Shown piece after piece: positions 9,935 through 59,086 of a stretch of 64,000 nt of DNA (positions within the stretch are counted from its first letter, which is position 1; the number at the start of each line of letters is the position of its first letter). The stretch is from Amphibalanus amphitrite. Its lineage: Eukaryota; Arthropoda; Thecostraca; Balanomorpha; Balanidae. Below the pieces are notes generated by a model. That model was given only the letters and a program-made list of their open reading frames with translations, was not told the DNA's origin and did no database searches. The stretch is taken from assembly GCF_019059575.1 (NCBI RefSeq), contig NW_024881519.1, forward strand, positions 558,001 to 622,000. Direction: 5' to 3'. Made by a program: the position numbers and the translations under genes.

Positions 9935-10939
9935 CCCGCGCACCGACGGGGGGGGGGGGCGGATATCCGCCCCCCCTGAGGTTTTTCGCAAATAGCGGGA
10001 AAACCGCGGCGCTACGCGCCGCGAAATTTGGTATGACTATTCCCTCATCAATTTTACACATGGTGTGTAAGTTTGAACTTCCTACCTTTCAAGGTCAGGT
10101 CACCAGGTCACTTTGAATGACCCAACCTCAAGTCACTTTTTTGCAACTTTGTCACCGTACCAGAGCTACAGTAGATGTCGGAGGCCTTTGAAAGTCGCAG
10201 AATGTTATTAGGTCATTAGTAGCTACAATTTGTATATCTCGGAATTTTGATATCGGTGACCTAAGGTCAGGTCAATTTTGCGACCTCCCCATTATAAGTC
10301 AATGGGGGAAAAATCAACTCCCTGTTTTTACCACTAAAACGGGTCGGAATGGCCCCATATACCATACATGACTTCATATACGATCAACCTTCACTACCTT
10401 GAGGTCTGTTTTGCTGTTGGGCAGCTGTGAGGTCATGTGACGTCATCAAAGGTCACCAAAGGTTTTTGGCCAATAACTCCGTACAGGAACAAGATACAGC
10501 CGCGTGGATGGTCTCATTGTGTTCAGCTCGTCAAGACGCATCGAATGATATACATGATGACCTCGAGGTCACGTGACCTGAGGTCAACCTTTGACCTTGA
10601 CCTTTCGAGGTCAACATATATATCATTCGATGCGGATTGACGAGAGGATCACGATGATGCCCTTAGTTTGTTCCTATCTTGACTAATTCGAAAGTTATTC
10701 GAGAAAAAACTCTCTCAATATCTAGCGCCGCCATTTTGACTTTTTCGACCCCTGTGACGTCATCTTTGACCTGACCTGAAAATGACCTTTGTAAAAATTG
10801 TAGATCTTGACCGTGCGTATCCGATGCCGTTTACCGCTTGTCGCTATCTTGCTTCGTTCTCGAGATCTCAGGGGGGGGGGCGGTCATCCGCCCCCCCCCG
10901 TCGGTGCGAAGTTGGCGCGGACCCCCGTCGGTGCGCGGG
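9935..10939. mobile_element. GGTCA-rich hairpin element, copy a (TTAT target duplication)
   Basis: The copy is flanked by TTAT at 9931-9934 and 10940-10943. Termini are the inverted repeat CCCGCGCACCGACGGGGG. Just inside each end is a G-run/C-run hairpin (GGGCGGATATCCGCCC at left, GGGCGGTCATCCGCCC at right), and near the left there is also GCGGCGCTACGCGCCGC. The interior is dense in AGGTCA/TGACCT. The core at about 10527-10634 is framed by the inverted repeat CGCATCGAATGATAT / ATATCATTCGATGCG. No coding capacity, so it is non-autonomous. A close copy in opposite orientation lies at 22849-23860. Confidence 0.85.
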
Positions 10940-11258: not shown

Positions 11259-11596
11259 CCCAGGGGCGGATCCAGGAAAACTCCAAGGGGAGGGTCATGA
11301 ATCGAAGTGGTGCCCCTACCTATACCCAAAATTAAAAACTCAACGGATTTCGTCCACTTCATTTTGGTGGTGCCCCCATTTTCAGTTTTTTTCTTTTTAT
11401 TTTTTATTTTTAGTCAGTATCTTAACTCTTAGCCACAACCACATTTACCAATTGTAAGCAAGTATATATGAATGCGCTATGTGTATATATGTTGTGGACG
11501 CTGAGTAGTGAGTACTTACCAGGAACGTTATCAGGTAAGCAAATCGTTGTCAGTCCGACGAACTTGACCCTGGCGTCTAAAGGGTCTGTCCTTGAC

Positions 11597-12617
11597 ACTT
11601 CAGGCTTGTCAGGGGCACCAAAGTCCTTCCAGGGACACCACAAACCTGTCAGGGGCACCTACGGCCTTGTAGGGGCGCCACAGGCCCGCCAGGGGCACCA
11701 CAGGCCCGCCAGGGGCACCACAGGCCTGCCAGGAAGCAGGGGCACCACAGGTCTAGCAAGTATACACGACAAGCCTGTCAGGGGCACAACGGGCCTGTTG
11801 GGCCCATGAGCACCCCTAGGGGCAGGGGCACCACAGTCCTTCCAGGGGCACCGCAGGCCTGTGAGGGGCACCAGCGGCCTAGCAGGGGCACCAGTCAACA
11901 CAGGCCTGCCAGGGGCACCACAGACCTGCCAGGGGCACCAGAGGCCTGCCAGGAGCACCACCGACCTCGCAGGGGTAACTTGGGCCTGTCAGGGCCCAGG
12001 GGCACCACGGGCCTGTCGAGAGGCACTTCAGGCTTTTCAGGGGCACCATAGTCCTCTCCGGGCGCAGGGGTAGCAGGGGCACCAGAGGCCTGCCAGGGGC
12101 ACTACAGGCCTAGCAAGGGCACCACTGGTCTATCAGGGGCACCACGAGCCTGTCATAGCCAGGCATCTCAGGCTTGTCAAGGCCCAGGGGCACCACAGGT
12201 CTGTGAGGGGCACCAGCGACCTAGCAGGGGCACCAGTCAACACAGGTCTGCCAGGGGCGCCACAGACCTGCCAGGGGCACCACAGACCTGCCAGAGGCAC
12301 CAGAGGTCTGCCAGGGGCACCACCGGCCTCGCAGGGGCACCTTGGGCCTGTCAGGGGCACCACGGGCCTGCCGAGGGGCACTTCAGACTTTTCAGGGGCA
12401 CCAGTCCTCTCCGGGCGCAGGGGTACCAGCGGCCTAGCAAGGGCACCAGAGGCCTGCCAGGGGCACCACAGGCCTAACAAGGGCACCACGGGCCTGTCAG
12501 GGGCACCTCAGGCTTGTCAGGGCCCAGGGACACCACAGTCCTTCCAAGGGCACCGCAAGCCTGTCAGGGGCACCAGAGGCCTGCCAGGGGCACCACAAGC
12601 CTATCAAGGGCACCACT
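11597..12617. repeat. 20-bp minisatellite array, left part
   Basis: The unit is close to AGGGGCACCACAGGCCTGCC, repeated about 50 times with substitutions and small indels. The unit length is not a multiple of three, so frames rich in RGTTGLPGAPQ-like peptides are not genes. The array is cut at ACT (12615-12617) by the element that follows and continues at 14141. Confidence 0.95.
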
Positions 12618-14140
12618 GCACCGTAGGGATATTTCCGATCTAGCCTGTCTTAAGTCCCAGAACCGACTTTTCATTTCAATCATTCTTTCGACTTCATTTA
12701 GCGTAAAATTGTCTGAATTTTCACGTTATGTATCTCATTCTACCTAAAATAATATTTTTGAGCACAAAAAATGAGCCCAAAGTCAGGCCTCGCTTACCTA
12801 ACACGCCGGGTGAAATTGAATGCTAAAAACTAGTACTCGTTTATGGGGCTGATAACTCGAAAACAATCATTTACAGCATTATAAATCGCATATGGTCAAA
12901 AAACTACACTGTTTCGGATTATGCAGAGGCATTTCAATAACATATTTATCAAATTTTGAGACTCACACCGCCAAGTTTAAAATATGCTGTAAACGGGATT
13001 TAGCTCAGCAGTACGATTTGGAAAAACATAGAAAATCAACAACTTTCGACAAAAGTTGACACTTTAATTCTTATACCATTCGATTTGTCGCAGAATTCTG
13101 GTTCGGGAACATATTCAAACTTTTGCTACTTTTTACTCCTCTCGGAGTAAAGCGGTCTATAGTATCGAGAACGGTACTACGGCGGCGCCCGGCTCAGAGC
13201 GATGAGGAGCATGCAGGCTACCGCGCGTTTGACCCCTGACCTGACCTTTCATGACGTCACATATTTGACGTCATACCGTTCAGCCAATGAACGACGGCAC
13301 TTACTCTTGAAATGCATCCTATAGGATTACTCCTCCACCTGATATGACTGAACAACTGAATTTCGTCTGAATGCCAGCCCGACGAATATTGATAAGGGTG
13401 ATATGCAAAGGTGGATATCAACTGCTGGAAATTGTTAATCGGAAATGATTCATCCATTTTGGCTGGCATATCAGCTATTGATTTATTACCAATACGTGCT
13501 TATTTTCTATATTTTAAATTAACGATATTGCTTATAGCCGTAAGATAACAGTTCATCTTGTTAAAATTTTCTGTCACAGTAAATCGATAACGCGGTTTTG
13601 CGACGATCTTTATGCCTGATTTAATGTGCTTACCCTTTCCATCTTTCCATTTTTTTCGTGGCAGACGGTTGTTGAAATATTGATCAGTACTGAATTACTG
13701 ATATGTTAGCTGCATTACCTAAATGGTCTGGATTAACGACGGTGTGAATCAGGGCCTTGTTTCGCCGGTGATAGCAGCACGCTGCTTTTACACGTGTCAA
13801 ATTGGGTTTCCATGGAAACATCAACAGGCCCATTGCTCCAACACTACCACAAGTGTGACGTCAGCTCGCGCAATTTGATAGCAGCGTGGTAGCAGCATGC
13901 CGTGAAACACCGCACAGGTAGGTATTCAGAACACTCGGAGGATGTGCTCATCTTTACAGCCGTAGAGAGATTACTTGTGATGTTAGCATGGACTGTAACA
14001 GTACGTTCTAGGCTTGTTTAAAACTCAAAATGCGTTATATTTCATAGCACTTACTTTTATACAACATTTGAGGGCACTACAAGCCTGCACCCTTCACCCA
14101 GGAATAAAGACAGGCTAAATCGGAAAAATCCCCACAGTGC
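12618..14140. mobile_element. Non-autonomous TIR element inside the minisatellite (TSD ACT)
   Basis: The minisatellite phase is restored if this segment and one ACT are removed. The termini are inverted repeats, GCACCGTAGGGATATTTCCG at left and the complement of GCACTGTGGGGATTTTTCCG at right, continuing into GATYTAGCCTGTCTT. The same terminus bounds 14936-21680. There is no transposase. The interior is AT-rich with no recognisable gene. Three-base duplications suggest PIF/Harbinger or CMC types, which I cannot separate. Confidence 0.75.
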
Positions 14141-14505
14141 ACTGGCCTGTCAGGGGCACCTCAGGCTTGTCAGGGCCCAGGGGCACCACAGTCCTTCCAG
14201 GGGCATTACAAGCCTGTCAGGAGCACCAGAGGCCTAGCAATGGCACCACAGGCCTGCCATGGACACCACAGGCCTGCCAGGGGCACCACCGGCCTTGCAG
14301 GGGCGCCTCAGGCCTGTCAGGGGCACCACGTGCCTGCCGGGGACACTTCAGGCTTGTCAGGGGCGTTACAGTCCTGTCAGGGCCCAGGGGCACCAGGCCC
14401 GTGGTGTCCCTGCTAGGCCTGTGGCGCCCCTGGTGGTCCTGTGGTGCTCCTGTCAGGACTGTGATTCCCCTGATAGGCCGGTGGTGCCCCTGGCAGGTCT
14501 TTGTA
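14141..14505. repeat. 20-bp minisatellite array, right part, with internal inversion
   Basis: This continues the array of 11597-12617. At about 14396 the unit switches to its reverse complement (GGCCTGTGGTGCCCCTG-like units) until about 14505. The two arms therefore form an inverted pair. Confidence 0.85.
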
Positions 14506-14922: not shown

Positions 14923-15775
14923 CCTTCGCCCCAGTGCACAGTGGGTATTTTTCCGATCTAGCACGTATTTATTCGTAGAGGGCAAACCATAGGTAGAATT
15001 GTAGCCAGATTGTGCACAGATGTTGGCTGGTGTGTCCTGGTGAGAATTTTACCTGTAAATGTGCATAATCAACATAATATAGGGGGTTCAATTGGACCCC
15101 CCGCTCAGCCGTTTGGCCCCTGATCAAGCTAGAGCTTCGCGGAAAAGTCAAGCGTGCTGCCTATGACGAAATTAGGCCGAATATATCCAATTTCAAAGTC
15201 CAAGGTCATAAGCTGACTTTCCAAGTCAGTTTAATGACCCAACTAAAGTTGGGAAATCGAGGCCTCTTGAAACTTCGCAAAGTTAGGGTGTTACGGGGTA
15301 TTTTGGGGTGCTGATCACGAATTTCATGTTAGTTTTGATCACAGACGATGTCTTTATGCATTTAGGCCAGGTCGGGTCAGGTCAGGTTAGATCAATTAGC
15401 AGGCATCGGTAGGATTGTGATTGCAGGATTGCAAAATCCTGATTGCATTCCTTTTTGGTGGACTGCACCTGGATTTGAAATCCATTAAAAAAAACAGGAT
15501 TTGATTGCGGATTGTATTGCATCATACTTCCATTTTTTGCAATCCAATCCGGATTGTGTTTGATTAGTGCTTTGAAATGGTTTGTTGCGATTGAAAATTA
15601 TTAGATCGGCTTCATCGGCTTAATGTACTTTGCTATTAGGAGCTTTTTTTCAGAAATTTTGTCCGAATGGATGAATGGGTGGCTATGGGCCCGGGTGCCC
15701 CGCTAAGCAGTGGCGCAGCCAGGGGGGGGTCAGAGGGTCAGCTGACCCCCCCGAAATTTCTGTCAGGGGCCCGCT

Positions 15776-16919: not shown

Positions 16920-17702
16920 CGTCATGCAAAAGCGATGGTTGGATTTTGGACAAAATTGAATGGTCTTTCCAAGGTGCTTGGTCATTGGTTGACCTTCCAG
17001 GTCAGGTCAATGACCCAAAAATCGGGAAAATCGGGACCTGTTAGAACGTCGTAAAGTGTGACTGCTATAGGGGTTTTCGGGGTGCTGATCACGAATAGTT
17101 ATCATGTTAGTTTTGATAACAGATGATGTCTTTATGCATTTAGGTCAGGTTGGGTCAGGTCAGGTCAGGTCAACCAGTGGGGGTCCTGCCGGGTATTTGT
17201 AGTACCTACGTGTCAGCCGCCTCTAGCAGCTTCGTAACATGTTACGAAGGCACCAAAACTACTTCGTGAATGTTCAAATGGTTGCTAAATTCGAATTCAG
17301 CTCCAAAAACTAGCCTAGAAACATGTATAATTCGAAAAAGTACCGAGGTCATCATAGTTCAATGACCTGACCTGACCTTCAGGTGACCTTGACACCCACT
17401 CTAATGCATGGGAGCAGCATCAACCCACATGTTTGAACGCTTGAAACCACGAAAAGACTGCAAACGCGCGGCTAATGCGAGTCGGCATACGCCGAATCGC
17501 GATTCTGGCCAAACATGGTCTCGGAAAGTAGGTCACATGTGAAAGGTCATTTGAGTCAGGGTCATGCAATTTCTAGGGTAGGTGTAAAACTGATCAACGC
17601 TAGGGTACTGAAAGTGTTGTCGCGATCGGCCGCTTTTTACGCGAGTTTTTCACGAAAACCCTTAGGGGGTTGCATCATCCCCTCCCCCTGTGCCGGCGAG
17701 GG
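16920..17702. mobile_element. GGTCA-rich element fragment, copy l
   Basis: Homologous throughout to the body of 40539-41419 (GGTGCTGATCACGAATA, repeated GGTCAGGTCAGGTCA, GAATCGCGATTC). The right end CCGGCGAGGG abuts TTAA at 17703. No matching left terminus was found, so it is truncated. Confidence 0.6.
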
Positions 17703-19577: not shown

Positions 19578-22117
19578 TACGTATGAAATATGGAAAGATT
19601 CTAAAAAATGGGTGGGGGCCCGCACACTAGGGGGCCCGCTTTGGAGGCGATGACCCCCCCCGAAACCAAATCCTGGCTGCGCCACTGCCGCTAAGCAGAG
19701 CTTGTTGCGAATGACACCACGGACCCACCACCCCACCTTGCCCGCGCCCGGTTCACCGGTGATAATTTGGATCGAAAGTTTAACGTGCCGCAGGTAGATG
19801 GCGGCACGGTCCTCCCGGGTCTAGGGTGGCCCTCTCTCGCCAGTTGCCAGCTGGCTTAATATAGGAACGCGGGTCAAACGACGTGGAGCTTCCCGGCCGC
19901 GAACTCGCTGCCACCGAGTTAGGAGACGGACGCCTTATCCACTAGGCCACGGGGAGGACATCTAAACTTGAAAGAGGAGGCTTTACATCTAAACTTGAAA
20001 TAATTTAAACGCTTTTAATTTAAACGCTCAAAATAATATACGCTGATGAACTACATAGGAAGGCCAAAGTTACGTATTTGAGGGCGAGTTCAAAAACATA
20101 AAACACTGGTTGGGTAGAGGTTTCAATGTGGGGGTGTTTGAGGCAAAAAATATTTCCCATAAAATACCTGTGCCTTAGATAGGAATTACTCGCAAGACTA
20201 GGTACTAGAAATGGGTGATTTGGGGATGGAGGCATGGCCCTATGCCCCCCTCCCTCCCCCAGACCCACTAGTGCACATAATAATACAAAAGGTTTGCAAA
20301 AAAGGATTGCGGATTTGATCTCAATCCAAGTGAAAAAGGGGATTGCGGGTAGGAATGCAATCCACTTCGGCACTAGGAATGTGGATTGGGAATGCAATCC
20401 TTTCAAAAAGGATTTTACCAATGCCTGTCAATTAGTAGGCGTCCTGCCGGCCATCCATAGAAGTGTCACCTACTACTGATAGCTTCGTAACATGGAACGA
20501 AGGCACTAGAACTACTTCGTAAATATTCAAATGCTGCTAAAATCGAAATCAGCACCAAAAACTACCCTAGAAACAAGTAAAACTCGAAAAAGTGAACCAA
20601 GGTCATCAAAAAGTCAATGACCTTGACTTGACCTTTACGTGACCTTGACACCCACCATTATGCATGGCACCAACATCATTTCACATATTTGAACGTTTAA
20701 AACCACAAAAAGACTGGAAACCGCGGATAATGTGAGCTGGCATACGCCGAATCGCGATTCCGGCCAAACATGGTCTCGAGAAATATGCCACAGGTCAAAG
20801 GTCAGTTGGGTCAGAGTAATGAAATTTTTAGGTTAGATGTAAAATTGATGATCTCGAGGGTACCGAAAGTTTCGGCACGATCGGCCGCTTTTTGCGCGAG
20901 TAATTTGCAGAAAACCATGGGGTTTTATCCGACCCCTTCCCCCTCCCCCTCCCCACAAGTGCGATGGTTAATAAGGTTACGGTATGTATAATTTACGCTT
21001 GTCATCCTATTCCTAATGAATGTGTCTCAGAAAATATGCATCATATAAATCACGAAGTAAAATTATTCGCCTATGTCCGGAACATACCTATATCGTGCTG
21101 TTTGCCCTAGCGCTCCTCGAGTGGGGTGTTAAGATACTCTAATGTGAATATTCCGTGTTCAGGCAAGTTTCGGCAGCCAAACAAGGCGTTGTCTTGTGCA
21201 GAAGAAAGTGGCGAATTCGATAGGATATATTTCGGAGTGGAAAAGTGTGGAGAACATTGTTGATTTCCTACATTTATTTAGAATACCATTCCTTCAATAT
21301 GGTGTCTAAGGGTTTTTTTGTAAAGGGCATTTTTGTGACCTTAGTAAGGTTGTGGCATATTTTCTGTTTGCCATTCCATTCCTAATAAAGGTGCCTTTCA
21401 GACGATATGCAACTTTAAGACCTCGCAAGATTAAAACCAACAGGACAGGACAATGAAATTGAGCTATACTTTCGGGCCTTGCTGAGCCCATTGAGTAATC
21501 ACGCATGAGTGTGAACTTTGGGCGCATTTTTCCTAGTTTTGCTGTGGACATACAGATAAAACAATGCCATATATGAAAAATTCAGACATTTCTTAGCCCT
21601 ACTGACACAAAAAATAAACAAAAATCCAAAAAATATTTTTTGAATTAATAGGGGCTAGATCGGAAAAATCCCCACTGTGCAGTGGGGGGGGGCATATGTT
21701 ACCACCCTGTCGCGTTTTTTGCGTGTAAATAAAAAACCGCGGCGCGTAGCGCCGCGCCGCTTGGGGTAGCTTTTTGTACATCAATTTTGGACAATGTGTG
21801 AAATTTTTGAACCCAGGTCATGTCAGGTCAGGTCACCAGGTCAAGTTAACTGACCAAGCCTAAAAAAGTTTGCAATCCTCTCCAGCCTGCAGTGTTTGTC
21901 AGAATGGTTTGAAACTTGGTGGATTGCATGATGGTATGGGCGCCTATAATTTGTATATCTCGGATTTTTTATATCCCTGACCTAAGGTCAGGCCAGTGGC
22001 GTGACCTTACCATTATAAGTCAATGGAGAAAAATGAAAATGCCTCTAAATCCGTGTGTACGCATAGGAACAGTCCAAATACTTCAGAATCACAATGATTT
22101 GGACCACCCGTGACGAC

Positions 22118-22434
22118 TGTAATGGAATGAAAGTCAGCCGAATAGAAAAGTGTATATAATCGCAAACTGCTCAATTCATTCAGTTCACTAAACTAGGTAC
22201 TCGTATTCATTCATTCAATCGACAAGTTATTCTCATATCATTCTAGTTCAGAAATCAGTTCACTGCTTCGCAAAGTCTTCACTCTTACTTCATTCTAATC
22301 AATTCAAATCAATTCATCAATTCTAAGTTCCAAGTCATTCTCGTCGTTCATTATCCGTCCTTATTTCGGTCTTTCAATTCGGTGCGCGCGCGTGAACTAA
22401 ACTGCCAGGATCCTCGTCATAATAATCCTCAACA
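22118..22434 (-). repeat. 3' LTR of the minus-strand retrotransposon
   Basis: On minus it starts TGTTGAGGATTATTATGACG and ends CATTCCATTACA. It is 317 bases and differs from its partner by about six substitutions or short indels. The canonical TG...CA ends are intact. Confidence 0.9.
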
Positions 22435-22448
22435 CCCTCCCCCCGCGG
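22435..22448 (-). other. Polypurine tract of the minus-strand retrotransposon
   Basis: On minus, the purine-rich CGCGGGGGGAGGG immediately precedes TGTTGAGG of the 3' LTR, the expected place for plus-strand priming. Confidence 0.7.
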
Positions 22449-22848
22449 GAACACGATTACTCTCAAATCCGACATTTTTGCGCCCCCATGCAACACGATG
22501 CGCTCAAATCCGACAGCGCTATGAATCGACTGTCGGGGCGAAATTGCACATGGAGATTGCGGCTTGCGCTGTTTCTGGACATTTGATAAAAACGTGATTT
22601 TATCGAAAACCAATGCCAAAGTATAGGGTAAGGGCGGGTAAGAGTACGCGGGCGATAAGAGTACGCATCAGCTGTTTCGGTTGCTTAGCAACGCAGGTTT
22701 GTCGAGTTCATGAAGTGACATGAAGCCGCCAGTGCGTGCATGTCACCAACGGAACGTGGGCGTTGAGCGGCGACGCTGTTGAGTTTAAGGCGATGAATAT
22801 TATTTTCGAACGTTATGATATTATTATGATATGGTACAATAATTTTGA

Positions 22849-23860
22849 CCCGCGCACCGACGGGGGTCTGCGCCAACTTAGTACCGACGGGGGGGGGGGG
22901 GCGGATGACCGCCTCCCCCCTGAGATCTCGAGAACGAAGCAAGATAGCGACAAGCGGTAAACGGCATCGGATACGCACGGTCAAGATCTACAATTTTTAC
23001 TGAGGTCATTTTCAGGTCAGGTCAAAGATGACGTCACAGGGGTCGAAAAAGTCAAAATGGCGGCGCTAAATATGGAGAGAGTTTTTCTCGAATAACTTTC
23101 GAATTAGTCAAGATAGGAACAAACTAAGGGCATCATCGTGATCCTCTCGTCAATCCGCATCGAATGATATATATGTTGACCTCGAAAGGTCAAGGTCAAA
23201 GGTTGACCTCAGGTCACGTGACCTCGAGGTCATCATGTATATCATTCGATGCGTCTTGACGAGCTGAACACAATGAGACCATCCACGCGTCTGTATCTTG
23301 TTCCTGTACGGAGTTATTGGCCAAAAACCTTTGGTGACCTTTGATGACGTCACATGACCTCACAGCTGCCCAACAGCAAAACAGACCTCAAGGTAGTGAA
23401 GGTTGATCGTATATGAAGTCATGTATGGTATATGGGGCCATTCCGACCCGTTTTAGTGGTAAAAACAGGGAGTTGATTTTTCCCCCATTGACTTATAATG
23501 GGGAGGTCGCGAAATTGACCTGACCTTAGGTCACCGATATCAAAATTCCGAGATATACAAATTGTAGCTACTAATGACCTAATAACATCCTGCGACTTTC
23601 AAAGGCCTCCGACATCTACTGTCGCTCTGGCACGGTGACAAAGTTGCAAAAAAGTGACTTGAGGTTGGGTCATTCAAAGTGACCTGGTGACCTGACCTTG
23701 AAAGGTAGGAGGTTCAAACTTGCACACCATGTGTAAAATTGATAAGGGAATAGTCATACCAAATTTCGCGGCGCTACGCGCCGCGGTTTTCCCGCTATTC
23801 GCGAAAAACCTCAGGGGGGGGGGGGGCGGATATCCGCCCCCCCCCCCGTCGGTGCGCGGG
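22849..23860. mobile_element. GGTCA-rich hairpin element, copy b (TTGA target duplication)
   Basis: TTGA lies at 22845-22848 and 23861-23864. Same family as copy a but in opposite orientation, with the same CCCGCGCACCGACGGGG termini, G/C hairpins (GGCGGATGACCGCC and GGCGGATATCCGCC) and palindrome GCGGCGCTACGCGCCGC. The AGGTCA core at 23156-23253 has the same CGCATCGAATGATAT frame. It is estimated by eye at over 90 percent identity to copy a. A TA-flanked MITE inserted two bases beyond its right end. Confidence 0.88.
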
Positions 23861-23866
23861 TTGATA

Positions 23867-25102
23867 GGGGAGAGTGGGGTAATTTGGCCGGTGGTGTAAA
23901 TTGGCCGCCCCCACCTGTACGATGTCTTATAAAAGTGAGTGAAATAACTCTAGTCTCTATTCATTTGTCATGGGTAGAAATAACTGGAGGACAAATGTCA
24001 AAACTTTGCCCCTCGTAGTTTTATTCAAAATTAATAAAACGTTAATTTCATTAGAAAATGGTAACTTTTACTTCTGTTTACAAAGTTGTATAACATGTAG
24101 TATTTGGGCTAAAAACGAATTCAGACATTATAGCGCCATTCTTGGGGGTGTTCAGCGGTTCCAAGAGCAATTTTATCTAATTCCGTAAAGCCGTGATGAC
24201 TTTATAGACATAAATTTTCAGAATGGCAATATGGGGTAATTTGGCCGGGACTAGTGGGGCAACTTGGCCGGTGCGCTCATGGTCACTATGCTGGGACGGC
24301 CGAGTTTTCATGGTCAATTGTACCATAAATGACATGATTCATGACCAACTTTGACTACTTTGATGCCTTACTTCCGATTGGTCAACTGTAAGAGCATGTG
24401 ACGTCATCAAAGGTTACCAAACGTTTTTTTTGCTACTAAATCCTTACATAAAAATGGTACAGCCGCGCAAATGGTCTCATTCTGTTCAGCTCGCCAAGGC
24501 GCATCGAATGATATGCATGATGACCTTGAAATCACGTTACCTTGAGGTTAAGCGACCTGATGCAACGTGACCTCAGGTCAGCCTTTGACCTTGACTTCTC
24601 AAGGTCAACACATATATCTTTCGATGCGGACTGACGAGAGAATTACGATGGTACTCAAAGTTTTGGCCTTGCTTCATTACTTCAAAAGTTATTCGTAAAA
24701 AACGGTGATCGCATCTAGAGCCGCTAATTTGGCTATTTTGACCCCTGTGACCCCTGAGCCAACCTCCAAAATGCAGCAAATGCGTCATAGGACACACGTC
24801 ATTGCTGAATCTGAAGCTGACTCGCAATATAACAGAAAATCCCGACCGCAAACTAACACCGGCCAAATTGCCCCACACCCCCGGCCAAATAACCCTGCTA
24901 GTGGGGCAATTTGGCCGCCTTGCAGACCTTTGTAATACGTCACAATTTCAATATAAGCAATTACTCTATCATTTCAAGTTCACTGTCCAGTAAAGTAAAA
25001 TGAATGCGACACCTGCCAGCGTTGAGAAAATGCAGAAATGTGTCGTCATTTTTAAGTTATATCGTTTTCTAAAAAAAGCGGCCAAATTACCCCACTCTCC
25101 CC
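23867..25102. mobile_element. TA-flanked MITE, copy B, carrying a GGTCA core
   Basis: TA lies at 23865-23866 and 25103-25104. Termini and content match copy A at 18344-19577 but inverted. It has no coding capacity and sits inside the LTR retrotransposon. Confidence 0.85.
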
Positions 25103-25881
25103 TACTTGGCAGTTGAGATGAGGTACATTTCCGTGATTGTTGTGGGAAACTTGTGAGGTTATCTGGGGAAATACTGTACAGTGCAATATTCTGTTTGCGA
25201 AGTTTTGCACAACGTTTCGGGGTTGTTTTGTTAGCGAATTGCATGTACGGTAAGAGGACGCACTGTTCAGGAGGGTAAGAGTACGCAGAATTATACATTA
25301 AATCGAATATACAGAAATATATAATTATTAATCTATCGCTCAATGACGGGGGGGGGGGGGGTAGGGAGCGGCATCCGAGCGGAGGCTCATTGCCAGCTTT
25401 GAGGGTGTACCATGTCGAAAAGGTAAATTCATTTTGAAGCATAGGTGTAATGTCAATAATTGACGCAACTGTGAATTGACTACCGGCTACCGCAAAAAGT
25501 AAAACCGGCTAACTTAGCCATTTTCGAAGATATCGTGCTAAAACTTTTGACAGTGGGTCATCGGTATGTGTTCAATCACATGAGTTCCGTTTCTTATTTT
25601 TTACTTGAGCACAAATGTAAGTTATGAAGACCATCACAGTAGCAAATGCATCGAAAGATGGATAGTAGTGGGCAAAATATCCTTAATTTGTCGTGCTGCA
25701 TCGAAAGTAGTGTTGATGAGAAAAGGGGTTTTTATTCCAGATTATCGTGGGTGCAGAATACATTGTCTGCACCCACTGGAGAATTATTGTTGGTGCAACT
25801 GCACCCACTGCACCCATGGCTCCTACACTTATAGGCCCATGGATAACGCTTCGGCGATACCTATCGCATAGAGGCTGCAAT

Positions 25882-26681: not shown

Positions 26682-26685
26682 TTAA

Positions 26686-27610
26686 CCCGGCAGTTGCTGG
26701 GGTATTTCGCCACCCACCGTTTGCTGGGGGGGGGGGGGGGCGTTAAACGCCCCCAGCCGATAACTCGAGAACCAATAAGCGCAGCGAAACGCACGAGGCG
26801 GCAAACGAAAGAGCGCGACGAGACGCTTCAGATGAGTACTTTAAAGTTGAATTTTGAGGTCACAGATCGGGTCAAGGTCAGGTCAAACACCTGAAATCGG
26901 GCATTCAATAGCATGTATTTCAGGACTTCGCAATGGGCGCCTCTCGTCATAAACTCTGTCAAAACGGTGCACAATCCATCATATAAGGCCTACAAGAGTG
27001 TCAGCTCCATGTAGGGGTCAATCAAGCATAGGTCAGGGTCAAGGTCAGGTCAACCGGGTAGGCACATATCCCCGAAAATCAAAACTGATATTCGCAGCCT
27101 GTGACACATGTTTTATGGGTACTTCGGGGCGAAGAACACGATGGTAACATTCATTTTATCATATGTGTACGTATTTGGCTCAAAAACTTCAATTTAAGAA
27201 ATGCATGTATCATGGTCGTGAGGTAGTCACGAGAAATTGCCAAGATTCAGTTCAAGATTTTGGAAAATGCGGAACGATAATCAATAATCGAAGATAGCCA
27301 TTTGATTGTTCATGGTATTGGCAGTCTAATGGCGTTTACGGCATGTCTGTATGTCTATTGTGTGATTTTATATGGTTTTTTGAACATATGCCGTTTTTGG
27401 TCGAAAACTCAGAAATCATGACGTCACTAAAACCTCGATATCTCAAAAAATTTTCGACCGATTTTTTTGAAACTTTGTCACAATAAACTTCAATCAATTC
27501 CCTACAGGTACATAAAGTTTGGCGCGCCTGCGGCGCGCCGTTTTTATGCTATGGCCCGGCGAAAAAAGTGGGGGCGTTTAACGCCCCCCCCCCCCCCAGC
27601 AACTCGCGGG
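26686..27610. mobile_element. GGTCA-rich hairpin element, copy c (TTAA)
   Basis: TTAA lies at 26682-26685 and 27611-27614. Termini are CCCGGCAGTTGCTGGGG and, inverted, CCCGCGAGTTGCTGGGG. Both inner hairpins carry GGGGGCGTTAAACGCCCC-type stems. A GCGCGCCTGCGGCGCGC palindrome lies near 27520. It has AGGTCA clusters but fewer than copies a and b. It split the minisatellite cleanly. Confidence 0.85.
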
Positions 27611-28105: not shown

Positions 28106-28129
28106 TGGGATCTGCTAATATGTAGCTGG

Positions 28130-28292
28130 CGTGGGTTTCTCGAGCCTCGTGACAATCGAATACGGGCCAGGGCCCATACGCCCATGGGGGCCCATCGGTT
28201 GTTGGGGGGGGGGCAAATGATATGATGGCCCCCTGATTTGCCTTTGGGAGGGCATGGCCCTGATGCCCCCCCCCCCCCCTGCGACCGCCACT
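28130..28292. mobile_element. hAT-MITE remnant
   Basis: The right end reads CGACCGCCACTG after C-runs, the complement of the CAGTGGCGG-type hAT terminus used elsewhere in the window. No matching left terminus or duplication was found, so it is probably truncated. Confidence 0.4.
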
Positions 28293-30675: not shown

Positions 30676-30678
30676 TAA

Positions 30679-30994: not shown

Positions 30995-31733
30995 ACGACC
31001 ATGGTGTCTTTTTTGCTGATAGCCTCTAGTAAGGTCATCCGAGGTCATTAGAGGCTACAAACAGATTTTTGCCAATAACTCTCGATTGGAAAGAGATAGG
31101 ACGCTGGGGATGGTCTCATTGTGTTTGTCTTGCCGAGACGCATCGACTGATATGCAACATGACCTTTTCCGGTCAGGTCATGACCTTGAACTGAGGTCAA
31201 ATTTTCAAGGTGACCTTTCAAGGTCAAATTATAGTTCATTCGATGCGTCTCGGCGAGAGGAACACGATTCTGGCAATAGAAATGTCGTACCCCTTTTCAG
31301 TCAAAAGTTATTGTCGAAAAACACTTTTCGAAAAACAGCTATTTTTGGGGTTTTTGCCCTCTGGAGGCTAAACCGTTGACCTGAGGTCAATTTTGATGAT
31401 CACCTTATCGAAAGAAGAGTTTAAGAGCTATCGATTGCGTTTCAATGCGTTTTTCTGGCTATCATAGTTCCTGAGATAAATGCATGTTTTCTGAAAAATA
31501 TGATGACTTTTGGCAAATTATGACCTTTGATGACCTCCAGTGACCCCAATTTTGCTCTAAGATGAAAAATGACCGAAATACTTTCAAACGTACGCATTGA
31601 GAGCTATCGACTGCTTTTTACTGCGTCTTTCTAGCCCTCTTAGTTTTTGAGTTAGAGGTGGGTGGTAACATATGCCCCCCCCCCCCCCCACTAGGGCGAA
31701 GTTGGCTGAGACCGCCACTGGGGCGCGGGTTAA

Positions 31734-33288: not shown

Positions 33289-33291
33289 TTT

Positions 33292-33310: not shown

Positions 33311-33352
33311 AGGCCAGTAAAGTAAACTTGATTATCACTAACGTAACGTAAC

Positions 33353-40538: not shown

Positions 40539-41419
40539 CCCTCGCCCGTATTGGTGTTTTTCCAGCCGCGAACGTATAAGGGGGGGGGGGGGTCCGTTGG
40601 ATCCCCCTTGCCGTTTCGCCCTTGATCGAGTTAGTTTGCGAAAAAAACGAGCGTGCTGCCCGTGACGAGAGGAAGCCGATGATACCCAATTTTAAGGTTC
40701 TAGGTCATTGGTTGACCTTCCAGGTCAGGTCAATGATCCAATCGTCGGGAAACTCGGGACCTGTTAGAACGTCGTAAAGTGTGGCTGCTATGTGCTTTTT
40801 CGGGGTGCTGATCGCGACTATCAAGTTAGTTTTGATCACAGATGATGTCTTCATGCATTTAGTTCAGGTCAGGTCAGGTCAACCAGTAGGGGTCCTACCG
40901 GGTAGGTATTCGTAGTAGGTGTCAACCGCCTCTGACAGCTTCGTAACATGTTAGTAAGGCACCAAAACTGCTTCGTAAATATTCATATGGTTGCCTATTT
41001 CGAATTCAGCTCCAAAAACTAGCCTAGAAACATGTAAAACTCGAAAAAGTGAACCGAGGTCATAAAAGGTCAGTGACCTGACCTGATCTTCAGGTGACCT
41101 TCACACCCACCCTAATGCCTGGGGGCAACATCATATCACGTGTTTGAACGCTTGAAACCACGAAAAGACTGTAAACGCGCGGCTAATGCGAGCCGACATA
41201 CGCCGAATCGCGATTCCGACTAAACAATGGTCTCAAAAAGTAGGTCATAGGACAAAGGTCATTTGAGTCAGGGTCAAGAAATTTACAGGGTAGGTGTAAA
41301 ATTGAATAACGCGAGGGTAATTAAAGTTTCGTTGCGATCGGACGCTTTTTACGCGAGTTATTCGCGAAAAAAAACCGAGGGGGGTCTGTTCGACCCCTTC
41401 CCCCCTATACGGGCGAGGG
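40539..41419. mobile_element. GGTCA-rich hairpin element, copy e
   Basis: Termini CCCTCGCCCGTA and, inverted, the same at 41408-41419. The left hairpin is GGGTCCGTTGGATCCCCC. On the right, GGGGGGTCTGTTCGACCCC is an imperfect hairpin. Left flank is TTAA but the right flank is TCTA, so the duplication is degraded or the end is misplaced. Many AGGTCA copies, and GAATCGCGATTC near 41207. No coding. Confidence 0.75.
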
Positions 41420-41509: not shown

Positions 41510-43770
41510 GGGGCATTCCACGATAGATCGTACCACATTTTTCCAATTTGACACCCTCATCTCTCGGAATTTAACGAGAATTGGTCTTAGGGGTAATCAG
41601 GGGCTCTGAATCTTCCTGTAACAATTTCAGGCTTATCAGATGAATAGTTTTGAGTTATAGTGTATAACATGTTTTGGATCTTGCTTTGCAGCGCTATGTT
41701 TGGCGGGCTATAACTCTAAGACGGATTATTCAAATGCCAAATGTTATATAACATTGAACTTGCAATGAAACAGATATTAATATGTTTTTTTTTTGAAATT
41801 TCGAAAAATACGCTTCTATGGATACATGACATATCTAGTTTTTTTTTTTAATTTAGTCCGAATGGCTGAATGGGCGGATTTGAGGAATCAGAGCCCGCAC
41901 TAAGGATAGCTTGTGCTGACCCTGACCCCACCACCCGATCGCGCAATTCCAGTTGCATGGCAGAAATTTGTCCGAACGTTTAACGTGCCCTCACGACTGG
42001 ACACGGTCCCCTCCGCTCACTCACGTTACCTGGCCTCTGTGCGGCCCCTGCCACAGACACGCACGCCATTACACGTAGGAGCTAAATGTGGCCGCCCGCA
42101 CCGGGGCTTGAACCGGGCTCTCACTTCCGGCTAAGCGTCGAATTCCGGCGCTTTTATCCACTCGGCCACGGAGAGGACACGGCCATGGTCACGGAGTTTT
42201 CTTTCATTTGTATTTTTTTGGACTTAAGGACCATTTTTTTTTTGAATTTTTATTTCTTTAAAAAAATATTTGGCTCATTGTTTAAGAAGTATGCAAAAAA
42301 TTAGAAAGGTGTTCTTTCTATAAATGTATTTATTTTTCGTCACAATAACGGTCTCGAATAGTGATTTCGGGAGGGGAGCTTACAAATGGCGTGGTAAAGC
42401 TGCCTAGTGACCACATGGGCTACTGAAATTTCAATTGAAGTCTGAGTCATCTGGAAAAAAAATGAAAAGAGGGCTCATCCAACCCTCATTCCTATAAGCA
42501 CGAGAGTGAAAAAGGCTGTTTGGTTCTTACATTGTTTTGGACGCCAATGACCATAGCTGTCCGAGATGAAAATTACAGGACGCATACATGGTGTCCTCCA
42601 GAGGTCTCACAACTTGTATATCTGTGAATTTTTGAAGGTCACATGAGGTCAGGTTGGTCACGTGAGATCACTGTTATAATTCAATTGGGAAATATAAAAA
42701 ACTGTTATTTTGGCGCCGAGAATGATATAAAACTATCTCACGTGCATGGTATCGTGATTTCATGCACTCCTTGCAAAGTCCAGTGCTCCACTTTTGCATT
42801 GTTAACCTTGCGTGACGTCATTCATGACGTCACTAGGCTTGTACGAGTTTTTCGTCAATAACTCCCGATCGAATTGAGCTAGAGAGTCGGGAAAGCCACC
42901 AATGAACTCGGGAAGACCTTCCGAATCGAATGATATGCCATATGATACCCTTTGCTCAGCTTCGTGAACTGAGGAGCTCTGACCTGACCTTGACCCGAGG
43001 CCAATTACTTAAGTTGACCTCACCCTAACAAAAAGTATACCATTCGACGCACCTGAGCTAGGCGAACACAATGATGCCAAAATCGCGGCTCTGCGGCCAT
43101 TTTTTGCGAAGTTATTTACTTAAAACCGAACCCGTAACTTCAGTCACTTGACCTGACCTCAGACGCTACCGGCTAACCTGAGACCTTAAAATCGGGTACC
43201 AATCGCTGCAACTTGTAACGGCACACACGCTCGTTTTTTCCGCGAGGCTCTAGCTCTATTAGAAGCAAAACGGCGTGCTGGGGTCGTATCAACCCCTCCG
43301 AAACCCATTTTGTTTGCGGGAAAATGAGGAACCTATAGAAAGAACACCTTTCTAATTTTTTGCATGTCGATTTACAATACATGAAGTTTATTTTGAAAAA
43401 AAATAAAAATTTGAAAAAGTTTGGTCCCAAAAGTCATTAGAGGCAAATGAAAAGATAAGGTTTTTGTTCAACAATCAAAATTTTTCTTTGGAATTTTAAA
43501 AAGTAATATTTAATTTTTGATTCATCGCAAGCTTAGTGTTGTTTACCGTTTGTTGGTTGCTCAACCCGTTCTTGAGTTATAGGCCATCAAACTCACCGTT
43601 ACAAACCGAAGTTAAAACAATGTAATGCAATATAACTAAAAAAGTTTTGATCTGAGAAGTCTGATGTTTTGCCAGGCGTCTTTGGGGCATATGATTACCC
43701 CTAGGACTGATTTTAATTAAAATCTGAGATGAGGGTGACGGGCCTGGTACGATCTATCGTGGAATGCCCC
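41510..43770. mobile_element. Fold-back element with AGTT duplication and a GGTCA core
   Basis: AGTT lies at 41506-41509 and 43771-43774. Perfect terminal repeat GGGGCATTCCACGATAGATC continues into GTACCA, then GACACCCTCATCTC-like. Long inner arms also pair (ATTAGAAAGGTGTTCTTTCT at 42301 and inverted near 43334-43354). The centre (42600-43170) carries TGACCT/AGGTCA clusters framed by GAATCGAATGATAT at left and TATACCATTCGACGC at right. The left arm contains a SINE. Confidence 0.8.
41838..42180 (-). mobile_element. tRNA-derived SINE, minus strand
   Basis: On minus from about 42180, GTGGCCGAGTGGATAAAAGC (A-box) and CCGGTTCAAGCCCCGG (B-box) resemble a Ser/Leu-type tRNA. The body shares GTTAAACGTTCGGACAAATT and a 3' CATTCGGACTAAATT segment with the SINE at 15650-19961. 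The A-rich tail appears as T-run on + near 41840. It is not a functional tRNA gene, since the cloverleaf is not closed. Confidence 0.75.
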
Positions 43771-45531: not shown

Positions 45532-47389
45532 GTGAGCCAGCTCTCTCATTCAGCGGTCCGCCGACGGCCGCTCTGCCTGCGCAGTTACTGGTTTTGTTGC
45601 TATTAGCCGGCGACTTGTAGTTTATAAGGTACGAATTGGCGCCATTTTTTACCCTTTAAACCCGTGAATGACTGCGGCATTTTCCATTAATCGGTGGGGG
45701 GGGGGGGGGCAGGCTATGTAGAGCCGTCGAAATTTAAATGGCTTTTTATAGCCCTGGAAAACTGTTGAGTGAAACTTAATTTTATTGACCTCAAACTCAC
45801 TGATGACGCCACAGGTCAGGCCAAAGAAGAAATTATCAACATTTTGGCTTTTTCACGATTTGGGCTCTGGCCGCCAGTTAACAAGTAATGCGTGGTTCAC
45901 ACCGGATCCGTAATGATGCCGCAAGTCGTAACCGTTACGGACGTAATGAGATGGAAATTTCTCAAGATTTCCCAAGCATTGCGACTTTTGTAGACGAAGT
46001 TGAAATGTGGCAACCAGTCCCCGTAAACTGGCAGCGTCCACCATACTCGTTACGGAACGTAATAGAAGCTGGGAAAATTGAACTTTTCGGCCCGACTGAC
46101 CGCCGTAATGACTTTTGTCGACATGTATCTCCAAAACGGGTTGACTGTTTGATGAGCGGTCTTGAGGGGTTGCACCCTTTCTACCCTAAACTGTGCTGTT
46201 GATAACACTTATGAGTACCTGTTACAGCACGTGCCACGTGCGACGCGAAAGGTTCCAAAAGAGCTCGTCATGCCTTAACTCGGGAACTGCGGAAGCCTAC
46301 CAGCCTACCAAACCACATACCACTCTGGCTTCATCTTCAGCCTTCACATCTTACCTGGTGTGATTGAGAGTGGATTATTCTATGTATGCATTTTGAAAAA
46401 TTGCACTGATAGCGTCTTAAAGTTTAGTGGTGAGTAGATGTAATTTCTGTTATGACTAAAACACATGGAAGTGATGGATACTGTGTTGCACCCGACAGTC
46501 AAGCAATGCACATACAGGTCACATCTACTACACAATTCACCTAGTACTGATGTGACCCCTGTCTTTGAAGAACTGAGCAGCTAAAAGCAAAAAATGAAAA
46601 TAAAATGCTGGAATACCTATTCAAGTGCTTCAAATGTGTCAACCAAAAATGTATACACAATCCCGCACCACCCACTTTCATACCAATGTTTTCTGATGTG
46701 TGGCACCATCCTGCACATCCTTTCATGCATTTTCATTTTGTCAACTTACTGGAGGTCCATCATGATGAGCTATGACTATTATGAGCTGTCTTAGCCTTTT
46801 TCTGAAACCAAAAAGACTTTTAATATAGATGTGCTCTTCAATGTTGTCCAAGACCTCAATTGTTTACTTGCTTTCTGACAGTTAATCACACTTCTTTTAC
46901 AGCACACAAGTAAAATAATGGCTTGTGCCATGATTATTTCCAATTCTACACACAAAACTTTTAAGAATCAAGTAAATTAAGCCTAAAACAAGCACAAACA
47001 ATGCTTGATAGGAGCTGCGCCAGACATGTAAACATGCGCAAAATATCCGTATTTTTCGGGCTGCCGGCGTAAAGGGAATTTTCCGTTCCGGAACGGATTT
47101 TTCCGATAAGGCTTATGTAAACGGGGCCACCGAAACGCATTTTTCCGTTCCCTGGCTAATCGGATATTTCCGTTTAGGCTGAATGACTCATGTAAACGGG
47201 GTAAATGGGAGAAAATTCAAAAGCGTCTGTTTTGCACGAACGCTATTCTGGACACTCTCAAACATCGAGATATAGGTATATAGGTAAAATTGACACACTG
47301 AACCGGAAAATGGCAACTGTGACCCCTCGTTATGTCCCCGAGGTCATCACGGGTCACGAACAGAATCTAACAGTTTTTCGCTAACAGTA

Positions 47390-48530
47390 ACAGTTAGAGA
47401 GGTGCTAGGGCGCTGAAAACGCCTTAGATGTATTCGGCTCGACGTTGCGGATCGACTGATATGCAACATGACCTTTTCCGGTCAGGTCATGACCTTGACC
47501 TGAGGTCAAATTTTCAAGTTGACCTTTTAAGGTCAAATTATAGTTCATTCGACGCGTCTCGACGAGAGGAACACGATGCTGGCAAAAGTAATGTCATGGC
47601 TCTTTTGAGTCAAAAGTTATTGCCGAAAAAACGCTTTTCGTAAAAACAGCTATTTTCTGAGTTTTTGCCCTCTGGAGACTAAACCGTTGACCTGAGGTCA
47701 AATCTGAGAACATTAAAGGGACTATCCCACCTTCTAAAATGTTGTTAAAACCAGTAAAATTGTGCCCGACTTTATAGATTGGATGACCAGGAATACGGTT
47801 CTGGCATTTATTTTTCATTAAACATCTTAGGCTTTCCATATTCCAAACACAAACTTTCAAATATGTGACGTCACAGCCCAAAATTACCTCCTTGCCCAGG
47901 CCACATTACTGTCATAAAGCTGATTCTTTTTACTCTGTAGGCACCACAACAAAGTTCAGACCAAGTTTTAAGCGATTTTTCAACGAACAAACCCATTTAA
48001 ATCAGAATGACTAAACGAGGTGACGTCACACTAACGGTCGCTCCATGTTGAAGATAGGGCCTTGCGCAAGGCCCATTTTCAAATGAAGGGAACGAATTTC
48101 TTCAACACCAAGAGGTCGCGGAGTTGCAACCTAGATAGATAGTGGTTTCTGAACCTCGCCGCAAACTTGGCTATCTCAACTCAAACCCCATGTTAAAGGT
48201 GGGATAGTCCCTTTAATCAGAAAGGTCTGTAAAAGGGCTATCGAATGCGCTTTTCCGCGGCGCTGTAGCTCTATCGGTTCCCGAGATAGTCGTCGGCAGT
48301 TTCCAAAATGTTGAAATAGTCAACATTTTACCTTGGGTGACCTCTGGTGACCTGAGCTTTGACCTGACCCAAAAAATGACCGAAGTGTTTTCGTCCTTAT
48401 TTTGGACGTTCTTTCGATTGCCGCTTACCGCGTGTCGCTACATGGCCCAGGAGCCGAGTTAAAAGGGGGGTGTTCAGACCCCCCCCCCCCCGGCCCGGCG
48501 AGGAATCTCAGAGCACCGGCCCGGCGTGGG
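47390..48530. mobile_element. GGTCA-rich element, copy i (right part; left end not found)
   Basis: Homologous to copy d core (31070-31390): GACTGATATGCAACATGACC, TTTTCCGGTCAGGTCATGACC and CATTCGACGCGTC. The right end has the hairpin GGGTGTTCAGACCCCC and the terminus complement CCCACGCCGGGCCGGTGC abutting TTAA at 48531. No left terminus is seen. A small MITE interrupts it. Confidence 0.65.
47716..48213. mobile_element. TA-flanked MITE (AAGGGACTATCCCACC)
   Basis: TA lies at 47714-47715 and 48214-48215. Perfect terminal repeat AAGGGACTATCCCACCTT. 498 bases, no coding. Removing it rejoins copy i. Confidence 0.85.
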
Positions 48531-54203: not shown

Positions 54204-55401
54204 CCCGCGCCCTGGTGGGGGGGGCTATTTTTTGCCCCCCTCCAGACTTTTCGATATATCTCCAGAACCGCTGCGCCGATCGTCACCAAACTTTCAGTAC
54301 CCTCCCGGACATCAATTTTACACATGGTGACCAAAAATTTTTCCAAAGGCTATGATAGGTTGGCCGGAAATAAATGACGTCAGAGTGACGTCATGTTCTG
54401 CCGTTTTCGACCCAAAAAAGGGTCTCGCGGGAAGAGCTGTCAGGCCTATAGCTTTGCAAATACAGAAAAATGATAAGGACATAAAAGCTGTAGAATTGAC
54501 AGGGCTACAAAACTGCTATCTCGGATTTTTGAAATTTTTTGATTTTGACCCCCAAAAATCAAAAAATAATTTTTTTGGATATAATGATCGAAAAATCCAA
54601 AAAGTTTTTTGAATTTCGCAAAAACCGGAATATATGTGATAGTCCTTACCACCTTTCATCCACATACCAAATTTGAGAATGATACCTCTTTTTTTTGGCG
54701 AAGTTATAGCGAAAAAACTTCAAAATTGATGACGTCAAATTTTCAAACTCAATTTTTAGCAGTTCTAGACCCCGTAGCGCAAAACAAAGACCACCATTAG
54801 ACTCCCCGTGACGAGCTGCATCGAATCAATACCCATTTTATGCAAAACTATCAGCTTTAAAATTTGACCTTTTTTGGCCTGACCTTGACCTGACCTTGAC
54901 CTGAACTTCACCAGAAAGTGACCTAAGCTGTACCTGATAGCCTTATAACCAACACCATTGAGTTGGAAATGAAAAATTGGCCATAAAACATGCATCACAC
55001 AACCTTAGTAAAGTTGGGCTCATGTGACCTGACCTGTGACCCTTGGTGACCTGACCTGTGACCTGACCTGGTATTGTCAGTGACCTCTAATAGCAACATA
55101 TCTACTAGGCAACCGACGCCCTATCGCTGATTCTCGAAAAATGCGTTTTCCTCGGTGTTATAGCGCATTCCCTAGAAGACCCGTGAACGGTGAAACATTT
55201 CATCTTTGACCTGACCTGTGACGTCATCGGTGACCCCGAGGTCAATGAAATTTGATTTCCCTTGACAAATTTGACAGGCCTTTCGAACGCCGTTTGAATT
55301 TTGCGGATCCGTCCAGTAGTTTCGGAGATACGAGGGGGGGGGGGGCAAAAAATAGCCCCCCCACCAGGTCGCGTTATAAACAGACCCCACCAGGGCGCGG
55401 G
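54204..55401. mobile_element. GGTCA-rich hairpin element, copy g (TTAA)
   Basis: TTAA lies at 54200-54203 and 55402-55405. Termini CCCGCGCCCTGGTGGGG at both ends, inverted. Hairpins GGGGGCTATTTTTTGCCCCCC at left and GGGGGGCAAAAAATAGCCCCCC-like at right are near mirror images of each other. Interior TGACCTGACCTGTGACC clusters at 54890-55080. Confidence 0.88.
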
Positions 55402-58170: not shown

Positions 58171-59086
58171 CCCTCGCCCGTGGACGGCATTTCACCATCC
58201 TTTCCAGTGGAGGATGGGGGGGGGGGGGGTACGACCCCTTCTGCCGTTTCGAAACGCGTCGTCGTAGAGCTTAGCGGAAAAACAGCGTATTGCTCTCGAC
58301 GAGAGCTCGCGATTGCGCATATTACTTTTGACCATAGGTCAATATATGACCTAGGTTTGGCAGGTTAAAGATCAAAGTTCGGGAAAATCGGCATTTTTAA
58401 CTTTGCGCGCCTGTAGCGTCGCCGCTATGGCAGATATCGTCATGGAATTTTCACCATCGTATTTCTGGATGAATGTGGTGCATTTTGGTGTATAGTTTGT
58501 CACATTTTACGCGATAACTTCCGGGGCAGAGCGCCCGAAAGCCGGCGGGGTCGCGTTCGCGCCCCGGGTAGTCGAAAATGCCGTCTGACAGTTGGGGTCG
58601 GAAATGTGATCTAACCTGTCGACGACTTCTCTTTGACCCTGAGACGCTCAATAAACCAAGTGCCCGAGCTTTATTTGGCCGTCAGATTCGAATTCAGGGC
58701 CAAAAATTACCGCCGGAAAGTCAAACTTCAAGAGGTCACCAGAGGTCACTGACCTGAACTAGACCTGACCTGACCTTAACCCTACATAGGTCAATAGAGG
58801 GTGTGTCAGTGCCATGTCAGTCACTTTTGACCCAAACAATGCCAAAGTGTAACCGACATCATCGTTAAAAGCACGAAAAACTACGATTTCGTGCAAAATC
58901 GGCCTGACCTTGTTACCCTTGTGACGTCATAGCTCTGTTACCTGTCCTGACCCGGTCATTTTTCCGCCAAAAACTGCGCAAAGGATGGTCCATAAGGCAG
59001 CCGGAAAGCTGGCGGCACTACGTGCTGCCTTTTGTCGCTATTCGTGAAAACCCTCAGGAAGGTGCGGCCCTTTCCACGGGCGACAA
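58171..59086. mobile_element. GGTCA-rich hairpin element, copy f
   Basis: TTAA lies at 58167-58170 and 59087-59090. Left terminus CCCTCGCCCGTGGA, right inverted TCGCCCGTGGA with a damaged tip. Left hairpin arms GGAGGATGGGG... and CGACCCCTTC; right AGGAAGGTGCGGCCCTTTCC. Palindrome-like GGCGGCACTACGTGCTGCC at 59011. AGGTCA clusters near 58740-58800. Confidence 0.75.

Follow-up and report, generated by a model that had tools for sequence, protein, structure and literature searches.

Non-autonomous piggyBac-lineage elements of Amphibalanus amphitrite carry arrays of a constrained AGGTCA unit

The window, that is, the whole 64-kb stretch of Amphibalanus amphitrite DNA that was analysed, contains a series of elements placed mostly at TTAA or related tetranucleotides, together with two copies of a TA-flanked transposon (T1). 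Their positions are the following:

9935..10939, forward strand: element a, non-autonomous and of the TTAA type, with TTAT as its target-site duplication (TSD) and 19 AGGTCA/TGACCT hexamers
9935..9976, forward strand: short end of a, with the terminal inverted repeat (TIR) CCCGCGCACCGACGGGGG followed directly by a G-run/C-run palindrome, the centre of which is 30 bp from the tip
10514..10657, no strand assigned: core of a, an imperfect inverted repeat with arms of 53 nt (85% complementary) and AGGTCA in the loop
10867..10939, reverse strand: long end of a, with the TIR, a spacer, a second copy of the inner TIR (GCACCGACGGGG) and the palindrome, centred 54 bp from the tip
14923..15400, forward strand: fragment d, TTAA on the left, with no clear AGGTCA excess
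16967..17702, forward strand: element k17, a relative of e (83.8%), left limit uncertain, right short end adjoining TTAA
18344-19577, forward strand: T1, a TA-flanked transposon with ends GGGGAGAGTGGGGTAATTTGGCC, carrying a homologue of the core of a
20427..20967, forward strand: element k20, related to e and k17 but decayed, with an uncertain left limit and TTAA adjoining its right end
21645..22117, forward strand: element l, left part, with a disrupted left tip, homologous to a and to the right part of the transposase-bearing element C33
22849..23860, reverse strand: element b, of the family of a, TSD TTGA, adjoining a TA-type element at 23867
23867-25102, reverse strand: second copy of T1 (T1b), TA at both ends
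26686..27610, forward strand: element c, TTAA at both flanks, long end on the left and short end on the right
30995..31729, forward strand: element l, right part, beyond an LTR-flanked insertion, its long end adjoining TTAA (31729)
40539..41419, forward strand: element e, TTAA on the left and TCTA (decayed) on the right
42590..43310, forward strand: element i, an AGGTCA-rich fragment without clear tips
47290..48530, forward strand: element n47, with an uncertain left limit and TTAA adjoining its long end on the right (48530)
54204..55401, forward strand: element g, TTAA at both flanks, with 16 AGGTCA
58171..59086, forward strand: element f, TTAA at both flanks, with a decayed right tip whose coordinates were set by eye

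Element a has a perfect TIR of 18 bp with TTAT at either flank and sits inside a reverse-transcriptase frame, which a precise empty site restores (...QNDILCKDQFGFQK). When a and one TTAT were removed in silico, the frame became continuous (...LIQNDILCKDQFGFQKSLS), and the insertion with its 4-bp duplication can thus be read directly from the sequence. An empty site could be deduced in this way, from a restored frame, for a only. Element b, flanked on either side by TTGA, is 96.6% identical to a in inverted orientation. An earlier note on this DNA had proposed a family of elements with a common plan. This is confirmed for a and, with the plan decayed to a varying degree, for b, c, e, f, g, l, n47, k17 and k20. 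Fragment d, which the note had also included, is still bordered by TTAA at one end; the number of AGGTCA hexamers in it, two, is inside the range of its own shuffles (mean 0.26, maximum 3).

Two of the elements are interrupted by others. Element l is split by an LTR-flanked insertion (22118-30994), the LTRs of which are 97.8% identical, and a second TTAA-flanked element with ends AAGGGACTATCCCACC is nested in n47 at 47717-48212.

The copies of these elements were examined in an assembly of 807.55 Mb (2,644 contigs). The DNA search with a gave 3,001 candidates, the best 40 of which were scored. These include the copy of the window, and each of them is full length, with an identity of 97-100%. 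The 39 others were fetched, three without strict ends were dropped, and among the 36 kept, 35 have TTAA at both flanks and the remaining one TTGA/AAAA. For g, 10 of the 39 other scored copies were fetched, with ends based on coordinates: six are flanked by TTAA/TTAA, one each by GTAG/GTAG, CTAG/CTAG and ATAA/ATAA, and one by TTAA/ATAA. The family related to e (12 of 39 other scored copies fetched) has TTAA/TTAA in nine cases, in which L104 and L108 represent a single duplicated locus, and TTAT/TTAT, CTAG/CTAG and CTAA/TTAA in one case each. Matching flanks other than TTAA are those of L098 and L114 (CTAG), L096 (GTAG), L101 (ATAA) and L109 (TTAT).

Identical insertions with identical flanks were found on two contigs (L011/L025, L016/L036 and L104/L108). 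Both haplotypes are thus probably represented in parts of the assembly, and the genome-wide counts given here are inflated to some extent: TTAACCCKCGC ends number 90,832 (734 reversed), the short end CCCGCGCNNNGNNGGGGGGG 14,645 (26 reversed), with TTAA directly 5′ of 12,392 of them, AGGTCAGGTCA 258,952 (1,178 reversed) and AGGTCA 1,943,084 (378,140 for the reversed control). The genome-wide tabulation of target sites that the earlier note had called for shows TTAA as the usual four-base target, with the TTAT of a and the TTGA of b as exceptions.

In some loci (L082, L103, L104, L107 and L113) elements lie end to end with one TTAA in common, as if new copies often inserted into the TTAA left by older elements.

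The two ends of an element are unlike in every well-preserved case (a, b, c, e, g, L068 and the transposase-bearing C44 and C33, the ends of which were readable by eye), a point absent from the earlier note. The short end consists of the TIR and the palindrome, and the long end of the TIR, a spacer, the second copy of the inner TIR and the palindrome. TIRs start with CCC or CCT, and their tips read CCCKCGC. According to a simple palindrome search without a null, which picked another stretch at the short ends of e and k17 and at the long end of f, the palindrome centres at the short/long end are 30/54 bp from the tip in a, 29/58 in b, 31.5/59.5 in c, 30.5/54.5 in C44, 25.5/54.5 in C33, 26.5/51.5 in L068 and 26.5/51 in g, where the palindrome is weaker. 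The centres span 25.5-31.5 bp at the short end and 51-59.5 bp at the long end, and are 24-29 bp apart. The inner letters of the palindrome vary by subfamily (CGGAT/ATCCG, CGTT/AACG, CCA/TGG, TTG/CAA), with the symmetry kept.

Ends of the piggyBac type have an internal palindrome near bp 25 on one side and, on the other, about 28 bp deeper. In the T. ni piggyBac, the left end has a palindromic repeat, bp 17-33, on which a dimer of the CRD, the C-terminal zinc domain of the transposase, is placed; bp 7-35 of this end recur nearly unchanged as bp 34-63 of the right end (PMC7351741). Since the positions of the palindromes found here match this CRD repeat, the terminal hairpins are most simply explained as the CRD palindromes of the lineage. 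The G-run/C-run hairpin would then do the job of the CRD palindrome, judging by its position and symmetry.

The genome contains 116 matches to the transposase domain PF13843, of which 34 (30 + 4) were checked together with their surroundings, as was C431. Among the first 30 loci, 18 gave a TIR pair; their tips, such as CCCATTAGTGCCCA, show that they are not the partner. In detail, C44 (C44:1060846-1064812; 3,967 bp) is flanked by TTAA on both sides, its tips read CCCT and both palindromes are present. It contains 12 AGGTCA and a frame that matches PF13843 (E 6.5e-70); the zinc domain and the DDE domain of this copy are in different frames. The C1173 copy is located at a different TTAA, and one of its ends abuts another element. 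C33 (447036-451750) and C431 (240291-245014) are 4.7 kb long with TTAA at both flanks and an uninterrupted frame of 666 aa, the protein of which shows 38% identity to that of C44. The non-coding parts of C33 are about 70-85% identical to d, e, k17, l, n47, a and b, and those of C431 contain 30 AGGTCA in the 2,325 bp read, the middle of the element being left out. The core of a is homologous to C33 and C431, as well as to l, n47 and T1, and the left end of f is homologous to C44.

Long protein matches separate this clade (at least 38% identity) from the other piggyBac families (30% at most), with fragments in between. AGGTCA-dense flanks were also found at C778 (58%; L076, partly those of a neighboring element) and C702 (39%; L083 and L084); the ends of these two elements were not found. 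By contrast, the number of AGGTCA is 0-4 in each of seven sampled piggyBac elements of other clades (six families; 2.6-3.3 kb each), compared with 12 per 4.0 kb in C44. The transposases with the TIRs CCCATTAGTGCCCA, CCCTTTACCGGGCA and CCCAGATCTGCCCA were considered as partners and rejected, as their ends are without the plan and their interiors without AGGTCA arrays; some of them are merely located inside or beside AGGTCA elements.

The piggyBac mobilisation that the earlier note had read from TTAA is therefore borne out by the flanks of the a copies, the genome-wide short ends and the PF13843 relatives. As for the transposase source with the same termini that it had proposed to look for, the relatives have the plan of the ends and homologous cores in common with the elements of the window, whereas the exact TIR of a was not found around the 34 of 116 PF13843 matches and C431. 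By the features tested, the elements are members of the piggyBac superfamily with an added component. They resemble piggyBac (T. ni, piggyBat) in the TTAA targets, the CCC tips, the PF13843 transposase of the relatives, the palindrome inside the ends, and the asymmetry of the ends with an inner repeat displaced at one of them. They differ in that the palindrome is within G and C runs, the interior contains AGGTCA arrays and the two flanks of some copies agree with each other without being TTAA (TTAT, TTGA, CTAG, GTAG, ATAA). The right end of piggyBat is without such a palindrome (PMC11707139).

The added component is the AGGTCA array. In a count of 6-mers, AGGTCA was the top-scoring word, with 145 observed against 4.8 expected, and it was present in all 10 family labels (12 stretches). 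The listed stretches hold 2 to 19 AGGTCA each, against dinucleotide-shuffle means of 0.18-0.63; most elements have 6-19 half-sites, and d is the one with two. The excess over shuffled controls, for which the earlier note had suggested a count, is thus large, and it also holds against the reversed patterns; the "dozens" of hexamers per element claimed there are not found in a, which has 19. Over the window, 154 AGGTCA fall in the 13.0 kb of elements (the two T1 copies included). The remaining 51.0 kb contain 38, above the maximum of 34 in 20 shuffles (mean 24.6), which indicates a slight enrichment outside the elements as well. The clearest second motif is the CRE-type TGACGTCA, with 14 against 0.2 expected, and its enrichment is seen in a, c, f, g, i and C44.

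Between diverged relatives, 198 of 268 AGGTCA (74%) are intact, against 28% of other hexamers, in 19 pair alignments with a pooled identity of 0.81, whose members recur and are hence non-independent and in which the alignment may favor repeated hexamers. The pair k17-d is exceptional, with two of nine AGGTCA kept. The conservation profile (17 pairs) is 0.91-0.96 within exactly six bases and 0.58-0.84 outside them. The conserved footprint is thus AGGTCA itself, which is the six-base half-site of nuclear receptors, with unconserved flanks. The extended site TCAAGGTCA (FTZ-F1/SF-1 type), noticed earlier, for instance in copy b near 23187, is no general rule, as TCA is directly 5′ of 14 of the 166 hexamers.

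It could be supposed that AGGTCA is a passive leftover, that is, an AGGTCA-rich ancestor was amplified and GGTCA units multiplied by slippage. Many subfamilies and T1 are indeed linked by core homology, and the overlapping AGGTCAGGTCA runs appear slippage-prone. However, the hexamers outlast the neighboring bases both between and within TTAA families, but not within T1, and this explanation is already disfavored and considered improbable. Even less probable is that the hexamers serve a folded RNA or a single-stranded DNA structure. Element a has a long inverted repeat and folds with a z of -7.2 against 25 shuffles, but the cores of e, g and c (z of -0.9, -2.8 and -0.5) are inside the range of three control stretches (-2.9, -1.4 and -2.5), and the hexamer itself is constant, beyond what mere pairing would ask for. 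RNA folding was thus rejected as a general cause of the hexamers.

T1 offers a comparison among young copies. Its middle is homologous to the core of a, so the AGGTCA core is also present in an element outside the TTAA kind. At least 40 scored copies of it have an identity of at least 97%, and TA is at either end in all 12 copies fetched. From its sequence, T1 appears to be a chimeric element with an interior taken from, or common to, the TTAA elements, and its TA flanks imply another transposase.

Variable columns were counted in alignments of the best-scoring (not random) copies, with CpG and homopolymer columns excluded and the ends trimmed by 60-85 bp (25 bp in T1). In a (36 copies), 3/111 columns are variable in the hexamers and 51/578 elsewhere; the respective counts are 1/85 and 59/713 in g (11 copies), and 10/91 and 117/476 in e (12 copies). 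Pooled, the three families have 14/287 against 227/1767 (one-sided p 1.8e-5). On the contrary, T1 (14 copies) shows no depletion, with 6/42 variable hexamer columns, a class of 42 columns only, against 105/898 elsewhere. The difference between the TTAA families and T1 is supported by a one-sided p of 0.005.

These counts bear on the possibility of a mutational cold spot at AGGTCA, or of its being shielded by a bound protein. In accordance with it, singleton variants of a and g are also depleted in AGGTCA (4/196 against 94/1291). However, the hexamers of T1 vary at the ordinary rate, which makes a cold spot less credible and points to selection linked with the TTAA elements, and CpG and homopolymer columns did not enter the counts. 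The cold spot was therefore rejected, and the explanation as a whole is held to be very unlikely. The avoidance of AGGTCA by private variants in a and g is not predicted by simple mobility selection; the singleton depletion fits such selection only if many of the sampled copies stem from different sources.

In conclusion, insertion, ends and relatives are of the piggyBac type, and the six-base unit is under constraint. The preferred reading, to which a probability of about 0.7 is given, is that these are non-autonomous elements of the piggyBac lineage, of about 0.9-1.2 kb, in which an AGGTCA array kept by selection would be an extra cis part in mobilisation. A role in cis is the most likely one for the array because the hexamers are constrained in the TTAA families and no constraint is seen in T1. 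The action would be on mobilisation at the DNA level, as the constrained elements carry no gene and can move without being transcribed. The array may thus be an added cis-acting part of this piggyBac lineage, with selection on the TTAA elements presumably keeping each six-base unit, and it may recruit the transposase or a cooperating host protein, for instance a nuclear receptor whose half-site matches exactly.

The first of these candidates is the transposase of the clade itself, binding AGGTCA without any involvement of a host protein. Transposases of hAT and En/Spm elements bind short subterminal repeats. Such a putative binding fits the restriction of the array to one clade (C33 and C431, and the dense flanks of C702 and C778, but not the seven elements of other clades) and the lack of visible selection in the TA-flanked T1. 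The CRD site of the T. ni piggyBac also begins with TGAC (TGACGCATG; PMC7351741). On the other hand, the palindrome and the inner TIR differ by subfamily while AGGTCA is constant, and the array is found throughout the interior and is not confined to the ends. Moreover, Pfam detected in the C44 protein no DNA-binding domain besides DDE, and the zinc domain was unmatched. Overall, the chances of this explanation are rated at a little below even.

In the second, the array would be bound in the germ line by a nuclear receptor of the host, which would make the chromatin accessible or anchor the transposase. This putative binding fits a conserved unit that is exactly the half-site and that stays constant while TIRs and palindromes change. 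The genome has 77 exon-level matches of the zf-C4 domain, and the CRE-type motif is also in excess. On the contrary, the commonest arrangement of hexamer pairs is AGGTCAGGTCA, with a one-base overlap, which to our knowledge is not a receptor dimer geometry. It accounts for 26 pairs, followed by ER1 (10), DR4 and IR5 (six each), and DR0 and DR5 (five each), counted without a null and with the duplicates a/b and T1/T1b all included. T1 is unconstrained, although any general chromatin effect would reach it, and the rarity of TCA directly 5′ also weighs against a receptor. Binding by a host receptor is thus a tentative explanation, with appreciably less than an even chance. In its more specific form, the receptor would be a partner in transposition: the arrays recruit it, it brings or positions the transposase, and jumping could follow the hormone state. 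This form is rather unlikely.

Internal repeats of a short motif, in either orientation and required in cis, are familiar from hAT (Ac/Ds) and En/Spm transposons. These transposons belong to a different superfamily with a different target, whereas here the motif fills the interior and is constant across subfamilies of different TIRs. PiggyBac transposition is known in terms of its ends and its transposase; an array acting in cis would be a third, internal component, apparently under selection. T1 serves as a built-in control, with the help of which mutation bias can be told apart from selection for piggyBac mobilisation. Among the literature matches listed, as far as their accessible text goes, no description of AGGTCA-rich piggyBac elements was found; the family may bear a name in Repbase or Dfam.

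The dispersal of nuclear-receptor-like sites over a genome by a mobile family has a parallel in Alu repeats, which are reported to carry DR2 retinoic-acid response elements or HNF4 sites (PMC1785376, PMC3252374). Alu repeats, however, are primate SINEs, whereas the elements examined here are DNA transposons with the half-site constrained inside the element. The genome-wide excess of AGGTCA over the reversed word is about 1.6 million, a number inflated as noted above. Since most AGGTCA of the window are inside elements, by extrapolation one lineage may have spread the half-site on this scale. If this is true and the excess is mostly theirs, these AGGTCA could be a sink for host receptors. Receptor sinks and hormone-linked transposition thereby become directly testable in this species.

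Regarding other content of the window, Rfam at the gathering threshold gave no matches. A source in IMG/VR was considered and rejected, as the single match to AGGTCAAGGTCAAAGGTC is a contig without BLAST similarity to the window; the search with the core pattern in IMG/VR gave no match. The segments 11596-12643 and 14119-14500 consist of degenerate repeats in which long frames are open (GAPQACQGHHRP-like) and are probably not a gene. At 33063-39087 there is a BEL/Pao-like retrotransposon, labelled so by eye from its protein, with identical LTRs of 226 bp and an open frame of 1,224 aa, which is probably very recent.
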